Positions 7,910 through 20,673 of a stretch of 22,886 nucleotides of DNA are shown here, piece after piece (the first letter of the stretch is position 1; every line of letters starts with the position of its first letter). The notes beneath the pieces were generated by a model. It had not been told where the DNA came from, made no database searches, and worked only from the letters and a program-made list of their open reading frames with translations. Position numbers and translations under genes: made by a program. This stretch comes from a virus. The stretch covers positions 1-22,886 of the IMG/VR virus record IMGVR_UViG_3300025469_000156. One strand, 5' to 3'.

Positions 7910-7939
7910 TTAAGTGTGTAAAAATTACATGGTATAATT
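7910..7939 (+). promoter_or_regulatory. Extended -10 promoter for the first noncoding RNA
   Basis: A perfect TATAAT at 7934-7939 is preceded by TGG, giving an extended -10 element. A poor -35-like TTAAGT lies at 7910-7915, 18 bases upstream. Transcription would start near 7946, after the end of the nuclease gene, and no gene begins for the next 490 bases. Confidence 0.7.
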
Positions 7940-7945
7940 AATAGA

Positions 7946-8410
7946 GTGGGGAAAGGTGTCTCCACTGGTAATACTGTGCATTATCTGCACTGATCTTCGT
8001 ACTTGCCCAATGCAAGGGTCGCCGCCTGCGGTTGGGTACTAATACGGGCCGAGTTCGCCGTCGCCGTCGTGCGATTGCCTCGGCCATTCTTTTGGGCTAA
8101 GTCATTGAATTGATTGGGGCTGTGTTAACCGACCAGCCCGCCCAAGCGTTCTTGGTGGTCGTCGGGACTTGCCCCGCCTTCGAGCATAGTGGCAGTCATA
8201 GACCACCGAATCACCGTGTTGATGACACCCCACTCTGCCATCATCCCCAGGGTGGTATGCCGTGCACGGCGGTCTGAGCCACCCTAAGTTTAGCTTTTGC
8301 GCCGATTGAGTAAGTCGCAATGAAAACCCATAATGCACAGAGAGTGCAAGCATATGTTTCGCCAGTAAGTTTGGCCTCCCCATGGGCGCGGGTATAACAG
8401 CGCCTTTTTT
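7946..8410 (+). ncRNA. Candidate large structured noncoding RNA 1 (about 465 nt)
   Basis: The stretch lies between an extended -10 promoter and a rho-independent terminator and has no plausible gene. It is full of perfect helices: GGCCGAG/CTCGGCC, GGTGGTC/GACCACC, AGGGTGG/CCACCCT enclosing GCCG-TGCA-CGGC, CCAAG-CGTT-CTTGG, GGGCTG/CAGCCC, GTGCA-TTATC-TGCAC and TGCAC-AGAGA-GTGCA. Near its 3' end a TTGCG/CGCAA stem (8297-8320) with a GAGTAAG loop recurs in the second RNA at 8853-8876 with compensatory changes. Large RNAs beside tRNA genes are known from phages (GOLLD, ROOL), but I cannot match this to either. It is unlikely to be a leader of the membrane gene, since the terminator intervenes. 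Confidence 0.6.
8385..8410 (+). terminator. Rho-independent terminator of noncoding RNA 1
   Basis: GGCGC (8385-8389), a ten-base loop and GCGCC (8400-8404) are followed directly by TTTTTT (8405-8410). The stem is short but all G-C. It ends the transcript started near 7946. Confidence 0.75.
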
Positions 8411-8442
8411 ATCATTCTGTTAGGTAGTATTTGGAGGCAGAT

Positions 8443-8625
8443 ATGGTAGTGCTACTTGTTCTTTTTACATTTGCATTTTTCTTTGGTGTTGATTGGCTCA
8501 TGTCTCACCCCATTCACCTAAGCATCCCGCGCGGTACAGAATATACCACGCCTGGGTTTGAAATGCTTGGTGCTCTCGCACAAGATGGTGGTGAGAAGAA
8601 AGAAAAAGATTCTAAGCCAGTATAG
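8443..8625 (+). CDS. Small membrane protein, 60 aa
   Basis: ATG 8443 follows a near-ideal GGAGG at five bases spacing. The product begins MVVLLVLFTFAFFFGVDWLM, one clear transmembrane helix at the very N-terminus, followed by about 25 mixed residues and a charged tail (GGEKKEKDSKPV), so the bulk would face one side of the inner membrane. Size and layout resemble small phage membrane proteins such as spanin or holin accessories, but there is no lipobox and no lysis gene nearby, so the role is unknown. The stop codon lies inside the tRNA-Thr gene: the last ten bases of the gene are the 5' acceptor strand and next bases of the tRNA. Confidence 0.7.
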   Translation: MVVLLVLFTFAFFFGVDWLMSHPIHLSIPRGTEYTTPGFEMLGALAQDGGEKKEKDSKPV

Positions 8626-8691
8626 CTCAGTTGGCAGAGCAGGGGTTTTGTAAACCTCAGGTCGCGGGTTCGATGCCTGCTGCTGGCTCCA
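8616..8691 (+). tRNA. tRNA-Thr(TGT)
   Basis: The gene is 76 nt with encoded CCA. The acceptor stem GCCAGTA/TGCTGGC has seven pairs with one G-T. The D arm is GCTC...GAGC. The anticodon arm is GGGGT-TTTGTAA-ACCTC (anticodon TGT, reading ACA), and the T arm is GCGGG-TTCGATG-CCTGC. All arms fold, so the tRNA should be functional. The upstream membrane gene ends within it. Confidence 0.93.
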
Positions 8692-8694
8692 CAT

Positions 8695-8770
8695 TGTCAG
8701 GTAGCTCAATAGGCAGAGCCCCATACTGTTAATGCGGTCGTTGGGGGTTCGAGACCCTCGGGGCCAGCCA
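8695..8770 (+). tRNA. tRNA-Asn(GTT)-like, degenerate acceptor stem
   Basis: The gene is 76 nt with CCA. The D arm (GCTC/GAGC), anticodon loop CTGTTAA (GTT, Asn), five-base variable loop and T arm (GGGGG-TTCGAGA-CCCTC) are normal. The acceptor strands TGTCAGG and GGGGCCA form only three of seven pairs, and the anticodon stem has one A-C mismatch. It is probably a decaying gene, or a tRNA-like element serving another purpose. It lies three bases after tRNA-Thr and was presumably cotranscribed. Confidence 0.65.
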
Positions 8771-8791
8771 TTTGATTTTGTAAGATAGTGT

Positions 8792-8797
8792 TATAAT
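8792..8797 (+). promoter_or_regulatory. -10 box upstream of noncoding RNA 2
   Basis: A perfect TATAAT lies 21 bases after the tRNA-Asn-like gene. No convincing -35 box is seen at 16-18 bases (TTGATT lies only 14 bases upstream). If used, the transcript would start near 8804. Confidence 0.45.
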
Positions 8798-8803
8798 ACC
8801 TTG

Positions 8804-9490
8804 GCCGCTCGACTTGTCGCAAGACCTCGGGCGGTCTATTAATTTCAGCTCCCCGCGCCGACCGAGTAAGTCGCGGTTAAAGTCCTACCAGAAGGCAGAG
8901 CATAAAGATTCGCCCGTAGGTCGCATAGCGACCCGCGAGGGGTTGCTAAGCAACCCCGTGGCGAACAATTCCTCAGCCTGCTTGCGCCGAACTGCTGCTT
9001 ATATGCTGCACGTGGCCTAGATGCGAGTGAGGAATGTCGGGCGTCCCCAATGGCTTATTGCCTACGTGGGCTCCGCGCCGATTGGAGTTGCACATGGATG
9101 CAACACTTGCTCGGCGAAACTCCGAGCATCCCCCCCCCCGAGCATCACTGGCTATCGATACGACTTTGCCTTAGAGCAATTTGCCGTTCTCGATGCTGAA
9201 GTTCTGGTTGTCCGTTCAATTATTGTGCCGTGCATGACACGGACTGTATGATCGGACTTTATAAGGCACCGTACTGCATGCACCTCTCCATTGTGAAGTG
9301 CGCAGAGTGCCTCAGCGCGTGCTCCACGCGATAATAGGTCGGGAAGCGTGCCCTTGCCTGATCAAAAACTGACTTTCACCTATGGCACACACGGGTGAGT
9401 CAGTAGGAGTTATGGGTTTGGTAGTTTACCCTGTGCACGAAAGACTACCACACATCTGAATCATTCTGCGACTGATCCTCGCAGATATGT
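8804..9490 (+). ncRNA. Candidate large structured noncoding RNA 2 (about 690 nt)
   Basis: No credible gene fills these 690 bases; the frames present are short and cross the helices. Strong hairpins include GGCCGC/GCGGTC, CCGCG/CGCGG (8853-8876), CCTAC/GTAGG, GGTCGC-ATA-GCGACC, GGGGTTGC-TAA-GCAACCCC, GTTGCA/TGCAAC, TGCTCGG/CCGAGCA, CTGAC..TCACC/GGTGA..GTCAG, GGTAGT/ACTACC, and TCTGCGA/TCGCAGA (9465-9485), which ends six bases before tRNA-Ala. The segment 8840-8921 matches 8284-8370 of RNA 1. The 3' end is unclear: the RNA may stop before, or run through, tRNA-Ala. The size and position beside tRNAs suit a GOLLD- or ROOL-type RNA, or a new class. Confidence 0.55.
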
Positions 9491-9566
9491 GGGCCTGTGG
9501 CGCAGACGGGAGCGCGCTTCCTTTGCACGGAAGAGGCCGCTGGTTCGATCCCAGCTAGGTCCACCA
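9491..9566 (+). tRNA. tRNA-Ala(TGC)
   Basis: The gene is 76 nt with encoded CCA. The acceptor stem GGGCCTG/TAGGTCC pairs fully with two G-T pairs. The D arm is GCGC/GCGC, the anticodon arm CTTCC-TTTGCAC-GGAAG (anticodon TGC, reading GCA), the variable loop AGGCC and the T arm GCTGG-TTCGATC-CCAGC. It appears functional. A 7-bp hairpin ends six bases upstream. Confidence 0.92.
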
Positions 9567-9753: not shown

Positions 9754-9942
9754 TTAGCGAGTGCCTTGGTTCTCAACATATTTCTTGAGAACGTCGAGAG
9801 TTACTCCACCAGTGGAGGCGGCAAAGTAACCACTGTTCCAAAGTGTTCGGGAATGGTCGCCCCAGAATTGAGAGCCATAGCGATTGAGGAAGAATTTGGA
9901 GGACACGGATTTGAGACATTGCGGCAGTTGAGCCGCAAGCAG
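9754..9942 (-). pseudogene. tnpA: TnpA (Y1 HUH transposase) C-terminal fragment
   Basis: On the minus strand, a frame of 62 codons ends at TAA 9756-9754. It reads LPQCLKSVSSKFFLNRYG, then FWGDHSRTLWNSGYFAAS, then TGGVTLDVLKKYVENQGTR. This is the C-terminal third of IS200/IS605 TnpA, including the helix that in the whole enzyme carries the catalytic Tyr region (the family has YIENQ at the end). The HUH motif and the N-terminus are absent: an in-frame stop lies at 9945-9943, and the tnpB sequence begins there. Y1 transposases cut and join single-stranded IS ends. This fragment cannot be active. Confidence 0.75.
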
Positions 9943-10404
9943 TCAAGACGCACAAAACACGAGAATCACATAGTGTCGAAGCAAATCGTTTCCTACGCCA
10001 AATTACACCGCAGAGCAATCGCTGTGGAGAACCTTGAGAACGTCCGTAAGCCGAAGAGCAAAATCCGTGGCTATGTCGAGCGTTCGCAGTGGGCTTTCTA
10101 TCAGCTATTGCAGTACATCACGTACAAGGCTGCTTTGCTTGGCGTTCCCGTAATCAAGGTCAATCCTGCATACACATCGCAGGATTGCTCACGATGCGGA
10201 CAGAGGACAAAGCCCAACGGGAAAATTTTCGTTTGCGCTTCTTGCCGACACAAAGACCACCGGGATAGCAACTCAGCCTTTAATATCGGCATGGGCGGCA
10301 ATCGGATACTCGACGTGGGATTGCTTGCGGACTCAGTGAGCCGCAGGTCGGGTGTATTGGTGACCCCGTTTCTGGCGACTACGGAGGCATACGCTTATGC
10401 CTAA
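9919..10404 (+). pseudogene. tnpB: TnpB C-terminal fragment
   Basis: From about 9919 the frame shows TnpB homology: LRQLSRKQSRRTKHENHIVSK, RuvC-II IAVENLENVRK with its Glu, TSQDCSRCG and FVCASCRHK as zinc ribbon, and HRDSNSAFNIG with the third catalytic Asp. The N-terminal half, including RuvC-I and its Asp, is missing. The frame stays open upstream to 9766, but that part is the antisense of tnpA and not TnpB. No ribosome site and no ATG precede the homologous part. Such 3' ends of tnpB also encode the guide RNA scaffold, so the DNA may still produce an RNA even if no protein is made. Confidence 0.8.
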
Positions 10405-10449
10405 CCAAGGTTCAAAGAATCCCAGAGTTTACTCTGGGAGCATCAAGTA

Positions 10450-10547
10450 ACCCCTGGGGCTGGGGTTTACCCGACACCGTATAGGTTAGGTGTGGCCCCC
10501 ACAATTTAACTACATCCCCGACGTGAAGAACGGCGGGTCCATAGCTC
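10450..10547 (+). other. GC-rich hairpin-forming spacer after the IS remnant
   Basis: No gene is seen. GGGGC/GCCCC encloses ACACC...GGTGT, and CCCCG...CGGGG-like arms follow around 10517-10537. GGGTCCA and TAGCTCAG at 10535-10549 resemble the first 15 bases of a tRNA, but the rest of a tRNA is absent. The first bases after the right end (TAACCCCTGGGG...) would be the guide segment of any omega RNA read out of the element. Confidence 0.4.
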
Positions 10548-10577
10548 AGCCCATTAGGGTTGGGCTATTCGTGTTTT
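10548..10577 (+). terminator. Probable rho-independent terminator closing the RNA island
   Basis: AGCCCA (10548-10553), loop TTAGGGT and TGGGCT (10561-10566) are followed by ATTCGTGTTTTT. The T-run starts a few bases late, so it is weaker than the one at 8385. It lies just before the first gene of the late small-protein cassette and could also act as a leader hairpin for that gene. Confidence 0.5.
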
Positions 10578-20175: not shown

Positions 20176-20673
20176 ATGGGAAGACCAAAAATTTATCCTA
20201 ATGGCCCTAGAAACACTCCTGGAAAATGCAGAGATTGTTCTCTTCCTTCTGTAGAAGGAAAAGGTTTTTGCTCTAAGCATTTAGAGAGGGCAAGAATAAA
20301 ATCTGCCACCAATAGAATTAAGAATCCTACTTATCAGAAACAGTATTACAGGAATAATGTAGAGGCATTTAAAGCTTATGATGCTAAACGTAGGCCCAAA
20401 GGTAAAGCTTATCTTCAGCATAATGTGACCGAAAAGAAATGGTTAGATAAACTAGAAGAACAAAAGTATCTTTGTCCTATATGCAAAGAATTTTTACCGG
20501 AGAATGATAGGGTTACAGATCATAATCATACCTGTTGTCCTGGTAATTATAGTTGTGGAAAATGTTTTAGGGGAATTTTGCACGGTGTTTGTAATGCTGC
20601 AATTGGAGGGTTAAAAGATAACCCTATAAGAGCCGCAAACGCCGTAGAATACCTCAGTAAATACGGACAATGA
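20176..20673 (+). CDS. Endonuclease VII-like HNH nuclease
   Basis: The protein has 165 residues. Zinc-binding CPICK (100-104) and CGKC, the DHNH motif (115-118) and RGILHGVCNAAIGGLKDNP (132-150) with a final AVEYLSKYG match recombination endonuclease VII proteins (T4 gp49 family). These cut branched DNA before packaging, though many family members in phages are freestanding mobile HNH enzymes. The N-terminal part adds a second Cys/His cluster (Cys18, Cys21, Cys32, His35). The ribosome site is weak (GAGAG). The A/T-rich, lysine-rich coding differs somewhat from its neighbours, which may hint at separate acquisition. It sits just before the scaffold gene. Confidence 0.9.
   Translation: MGRPKIYPNGPRNTPGKCRDCSLPSVEGKGFCSKHLERARIKSATNRIKNPTYQKQYYRNNVEAFKAYDAKRRPKGKAYLQHNVTEKKWLDKLEEQKYLCPICKEFLPENDRVTDHNHTCCPGNYSCGKCFRGILHGVCNAAIGGLKDNPIRAANAVEYLSKYGQ

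Follow-up and report, generated by a model that had tools for sequence, protein, structure and literature searches.

The stretch of DNA considered here (the window) is a linear 22.9-kb IMG/VR virus fragment in which genes for PolA, TerL, the major capsid and a portal-like protein can be recognized. TerL shares 63% identity with its counterpart in Tunturiibacter phage Tunturi_4, and PolA shares 43-44% with those of Tunturi_3 and Tunturi_4 (the Tunturi phages are described in PMC11924767). Because of these identities, the host is likely to be acidobacterial (soil Acidobacteria), and the clade probably comprises tailed phages of Acidobacteriota. The - strand encodes, at 1-975, a TnpB-like protein (OrfB_IS605 and TNB domains) that runs off the start of the window and, at 1553-1915, an ORF weakly matching the DarT1-associated NADAR antitoxin (Pfam, 29.4 bits, cut-off 27), possibly a counter-defence gene. 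A remnant of an IS200/IS605-like element occupies 9758-10445, with the C-terminal part of tnpB (Pfam TNB domain) on the + strand and the C-terminal part of tnpA on the - strand, the latter recognized by eye only and with no Pfam match. Another locus, L033, is 100% identical to the window from 10445 on and differs leftward, where it has tRNA-Gln and tRNA-Met.

Two noncoding stretches lie among the tRNA genes of the window, which is also the setting of the GOLLD and ROOL RNAs; all of the features that follow are on the + strand. RNA1, a leader noncoding RNA of ~465 nt (7944-8411), is preceded by a candidate extended -10 promoter, TGGTATAAT (7930-7938, a sequence match only), opens with an 8-bp hairpin with the loop AAGGUG (7945-7966) and closes with an intrinsic-terminator-like end, GGGCGC..GCGCC followed by T6 (8384-8411, as read from the sequence). 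RNA2, of ~690 nt (8803 to an inferred 3' end at 9490), extends up to tRNA-Ala(TGC) (9491-9566) and has a candidate extended -10 promoter of its own, TGTTATAAT (8789-8797, again a match to sequence). The motif TGNTATAAT occurs four times in the window, compared with 0.76 expected, and two of the copies precede RNA1 and RNA2; in relatives, TTGACA...TATAAT-like promoters are found upstream of the RNA1 domain D1 that is described below. Between the two RNAs lie a small ORF (8431-8625, listed at 64 aa, with a likely start at ATG 8443 and GGAGG upstream), tRNA-Thr(TGT) (8616-8691) and a degenerate tRNA-Asn (8697-8772) with broken acceptor and anticodon stems, which scores 30 bits against the Rfam tRNA model over model positions 8-63 only and is not called by ARAGORN. 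This tRNA-Asn, decayed in the window, is intact in relatives such as L039. The ORF product, predicted as a possible one-helix membrane protein, ends in a GTEYTTPGFEMLGALAQDGG-like sequence and has a SecE-like match below cut-off only; the ORF is conserved in L095 (between the leader and tRNA-Thr) and in L072 (inside the operon). A run of ten Cs in RNA2 (~9131-9140), between two copies of CGAGCATC, is possibly an assembly-sensitive spot. The probable end of the operon is a 3' hairpin, CCGACGU-GAAGA-ACGGCGG, with a strong terminator (10518-10568), which is conserved in L039 and has similar counterparts in L072 and L074.

BLAST of the region against phage and plasmid records returned nothing, or tRNAs only, a VRR-NUC-like neighbour gene used as anchor yielded no relatives, and none came from a search of genome contigs. 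The terminase as anchor led to L033-L035, and PolA alignments gathered ~60 relatives' loci, in many of which tRNA genes, often Thr, Asn and Ala, are clustered in divergent orientation to polA and separated by long noncoding gaps. Sequence similarity between these gaps is low and their turnover is rapid, so that BLAST detects almost nothing; what persists is structure. L039 is the closest PolA relative of the window, and its leader aligns with RNA1 over 156 nt (z 4.8). RNA2 resembles the intervening RNA of L095 (z 19.7). In Tunturi_3, a relative in culture, noncoding stretches around tRNA-Asn (at ~93,190-93,700 and ~94,380-94,760 of its record) form a comparable locus that is unassigned.

One part of RNA1 is D1 (8092-8150, 59 nt), a three-way junction made of P1 (UGGGC/GCCCA), a P2 hairpin and a P3 hairpin whose loop contains AACC. 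It lies at the corresponding position, ahead of the first tRNA, in ~10 distinct relatives, with one copy in each strongly matching record; it was not found in many other relatives. Its fold is predicted singly in six sequences, a descriptor scan for its plan picks out L039, L056, L071, L073, L078, L080, L082 and L095, and a first covariance model, built on three relatives, led to L071, L073, L078, L083 and L095. The later model R2, trained on eight relatives with the window and L039 left out, recovers D1 in the window (E 2.8e-4 when 651 kb are searched, 9.9e-6 when only the window is) and in L039 (3.4e-6 in an unfiltered search of its locus); these matches are modest, at 27 bits, and both fall at the place predicted by synteny. 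In the eight-sequence alignment (A12), 8 of 16 pairs are doubly changed, 96% of cells are paired (80 ± 2.5 when shuffled) and the covariation score is 0.473, compared with 0.18 for shuffled and at most 0.145 for slid controls; since A12 was fitted to the structure these counts lean upward, and the slid controls lie far lower. A pattern scan of IMG/VR for D1 returned known contigs of the clade and one new contig, L110, that also matches the model.

RNA2 carries a different domain, D3 (8904-8965), in which UUCGCC/GGCGAA closes two hairpins. It is 87% identical to a 62-nt segment of L095 that begins at the end of tRNA-Met, and a model built from these two sequences (R3) finds the held-out L078 at 6e-8, where the match begins at the end of tRNA-Thr. 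Of the 23 pairs, 5 are doubly changed across these three sequences, whose alignment comes from the model built on only two of the three, and slid controls have none. Apparent analogues of D3 can be seen by eye after tRNA-Gly in L071 and after tRNA-Thr in L056. Also by eye, a helix, AUUCCUCA/UGAGGAAU, follows D3 (8968-9035) and is found at the same place, with different sequence, in L095 and L078. An initial fuzzy structural search that allowed up to four mismatches gave mostly chance matches and was set aside.

Attention had been drawn to the locus by a sequence-only reading, in which the two RNAs were said to share a segment whose stem had changed on both strands. The two repeats are where that reading placed them, and the similarity of RNA1 and RNA2 is confirmed: their local alignment (7944-8412 with 8802-9490), with ~105 nt in common, scores 26.5. 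Dinucleotide shuffling of the pair, repeated 500 times, gives 13.2 ± 1.85 (maximum 21.5), and RNA1 never exceeds 19.5 when aligned with 121 windows from elsewhere in the record. The alignment spans ~8268-8371 and 8830-8921, so that it takes in GGCGGTCT on the 5' side and GCATA..TTCGCC on the 3' side, and GCGCCGA-NN-GAGTAAGTCGC recurs at 8299-8318 and 8855-8874. The first copy of this domain, D4 (8288-8371), has a P2 of UUGCG/CGCAA with the loop CCGAUUGAGUAAGU, a hairpin UGCAC/GUGCA and then UUUCGCC; the second (8844-8908) has GCUC/GAGC, CCGCG/CGCGG with the loop CCGACCGAGUAAGU, and CCU/AGG. Two pairs do differ on both sides between TTGCG(8297-8301)/CGCAA(8316-8320) and CCGCG(8853-8857)/CGCGG(8872-8876), as reported, yet to call them direct evidence for a conserved structure was too strong: with the 8 observed mismatches placed at random, two or more double changes that leave all five pairs intact arise in 0.9% of trials, and in ~3% when the post hoc choice among three possible 5-bp stems is allowed for, so that the stem change in these two copies is suggestive of conserved structure only. 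A further helix, GCUU/AAGC (8293-8296/8348-8351) in one copy and GCUC/GAGC (8848-8851/8898-8901) in the other, would make D4 a three-way junction. The RNA2 copy folds as one alone and the RNA1 copy in isolation does not, and A8348 competes with the neighbouring hairpin; the five-pair stem is present in the whole-RNA fold of RNA1. GACUUG, upstream of D4 at 8166 and 8811, could pair with UAAGUC of the D4 loop as a pseudoknot, a match that is weak in comparison with chance. A tRNA-like identity for D4 was considered and rejected, there being no tRNA match at D4.

Scanning IMG/VR for the D4 loop motif gave 31 matches, the chance expectation, none with the flanking context, and a stricter pattern gave none; no homologue of D4 was thus found there outside the window, and its covariation therefore rests on two copies. 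In L039, GCATAAGTCGCAAC fits a third D4 by position, as a 10-nt match that is not significant. The lack of D4 in IMG/VR lends some weight to the reading of D4 as a recent segmental duplication and nothing else, its stem changes being chance transitions (two such double changes fall to chance in ~1-3%) in a segment with no conserved structure of its own, as the failure of the RNA1 copy to form the junction in isolation would also have it. We regard this as a minority possibility, though one to be taken seriously. Against it, GAGTAAGT and the GCG/CGC core have been kept while the flanks diverged, and all four stem changes (4/4) are complementary. The reading is in any event compatible with what is proposed below for the remainder of the RNAs. 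D4 itself is real homology, present in both RNAs because a segment was duplicated or copied between them. Internal duplication is its most plausible reading, and the signs of structural constraint on it are suggestive only. The sequence-only reading had left the choice between a new class of RNA and a tandem duplication: segmental duplication explains D4, while D1 and D3 show RNA1 and RNA2 to be part of a broader family of RNAs from phage tRNA operons, one not described before. Covariation among homologues is provided by the D1 and D3 models and not by D4.

Taken whole, the predicted folds of RNA1 and RNA2 are more stable than expected (MFE z -2.7 and -4.4, respectively). The excess is slight in 150-nt sliding windows (mean z -1.1 over the two RNAs, -0.7 elsewhere), which do not single out the region, and the case therefore rests on D1 and D3, about 1/10 of the length. 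Because the D1 and D3 folds recur in relatives with compensatory pair changes, the conclusion that RNA1 and RNA2 are genuine RNA genes, of a kind not described before, that encode folded RNAs and not proteins is well supported, and with it the original suggestion of two structured noncoding RNAs beside tRNA genes. We lean, with some reserve, towards a fuller account in which they belong to a phage tRNA operon as noncoding RNA genes, their products being folded chains of domains that may act in the manner of GOLLD and ROOL. The tRNA/noncoding RNA operon, ~2.6 kb and oriented divergently to the DNA polymerase gene of the phage, would yield two RNAs, each a chain of small self-folding domains, with compensatory change keeping D1 (in RNA1) and D3 (in RNA2) across relatives. 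Transcription of each RNA would start from a separate extended -10 promoter, RNA1 would stop at its terminator and RNase P would free RNA2 from tRNA-Ala. During infection both may then act as folded RNAs, scaffolds or docking RNAs like GOLLD and ROOL, and not as messages, with the GAGUAAGU-loop domain D4 as one putative binding site carried by both.

The same parts could instead be folded leader and spacer segments within a tRNA precursor, there in cis to direct cleavage by RNases, stop exonucleases or cause transcription attenuation, and with no independent role after the tRNAs are excised. That tRNA 3' ends are directly followed by D3 in L095 and L078, that RNA2 continues into tRNA-Ala, that a terminator-like end separates RNA1 from the next ORF and that sequence turns over rapidly among relatives are all what such spacers might show. 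We nevertheless think this unlikely, if far from negligible: RNA1 has what appear to be its own promoter and terminator and is separated from the tRNAs by the small ORF, conservation of D1 exceeds the needs of a spacer, and D3 in the window follows D4 and not a tRNA. As the probable function, a GOLLD/ROOL-like structural RNA is favoured over a processing spacer, at low certainty.

GOLLD is a large structured noncoding RNA of phages, found near tRNA islands and sometimes with tRNAs within it, in which the 3' part is conserved and the 5' part variable; ROOL is a phage and prophage RNA of ~600 nt, also near tRNA islands and with extensive secondary structure (PMC12286853). RNA1 and RNA2 resemble the former as structured phage noncoding RNAs near tRNA genes and differ from it as two shorter RNAs, of ~465 and ~690 nt, with other domains; they share with ROOL the tRNA-island setting and the presence of structure, and again their domains are different. 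They have no Rfam match to either. An Rfam cmscan of the window at E up to 1 found only tRNA over the RNA1/RNA2 region (and, at 20333, a sub-threshold BTnc005), and L095, L072 and L074 likewise gave only tRNA at meaningful scores. RNA1 and RNA2 are therefore not GOLLD or ROOL as these are modelled in Rfam, and the earlier inability to place them in either family is borne out. Setting and similar size (PMC12286853) would fit a very divergent GOLLD or ROOL; the idea is highly improbable, as neither model matches the window (E up to 1) or L095, L072 and L074 (E up to 2). Hardly any credence attaches to a region encoding small proteins: ORFs of 93, 68 and 76 aa do overlap the RNAs, but among overlapping ORFs of at least 60 aa no tested frame matches a protein family in Pfam or PHROGs, and it is base pairing that is conserved.

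Other structured RNAs occur in the wider phage clade. Permuted tmRNA genes (RF04321), like RNA1 and RNA2 structured RNA genes near polA, score above the gathering threshold in Tunturi_3 (L037, 3173-3397, - strand), L044, L051, L052, L053 and L055; none was found in the window, and D1, D3 and D4 do not match them. The text of the Tunturi paper (PMC11924767) makes no mention of tmRNA. YrlA (Y RNA-like, RF02553) is likewise a tRNA-associated structured RNA, with weak YrlA-like matches in the operon of some relatives, but it is absent from the window by cmscan (E up to 1), and D1, D3 and D4 are not YrlA. In L040 (reverse complement, 6927-6776) and L080 (reverse complement, 3528-3427) there is a tRNA-like element with its 3' half ahead of its 5' half, which scores 34.7 and 25.4 bits, respectively, against YrlA (cut-off 69), a model that also gives weak matches in control genomes. 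In the L083 record (G002:15483-16199) a gene for a TROVE (Ro60-like) protein lies inside an island of 26 tRNAs; this phage also has a D1 leader.

Just 5' of D1, or of its place, most relatives have a long leader hairpin whose apical loop contains CUCCUU(UC), which we take to be the sequence of the 16S rRNA 3' tail (anti-Shine-Dalgarno). It is seen in L040, L056, L071-L075, L077-L080, L082-L084, L086, L087, L092, L095 and L101 and is absent from RNA1 of the window; an action of this hairpin on translation is speculation. A bolder account, which we offer tentatively and think rather improbable, would have these as a new class of ornate phage RNAs with interchangeable modules, encoded by an operon devoted to them and acting together on host translation, composed of the D1 leader, the CUCCUUUC hairpin of most relatives (with CUCCUUUC as the 16S 3'-tail, anti-Shine-Dalgarno, sequence) and D3 and D4 modules placed after tRNAs or replacing them.

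GOLLD and ROOL are known as large structured phage RNAs beside tRNA genes and are unexplained. An independent, uncatalogued set of RNAs in phages probably of Acidobacteriota provides a second case for comparison. With its domains delimited, covariance models and synteny available and a similar locus in a cultured relative, the set lends itself to tests by deletion and expression; its domain-by-domain turnover between relatives, which includes the copying of a domain between two RNAs in a single genome, is informative on the evolution of such RNAs.
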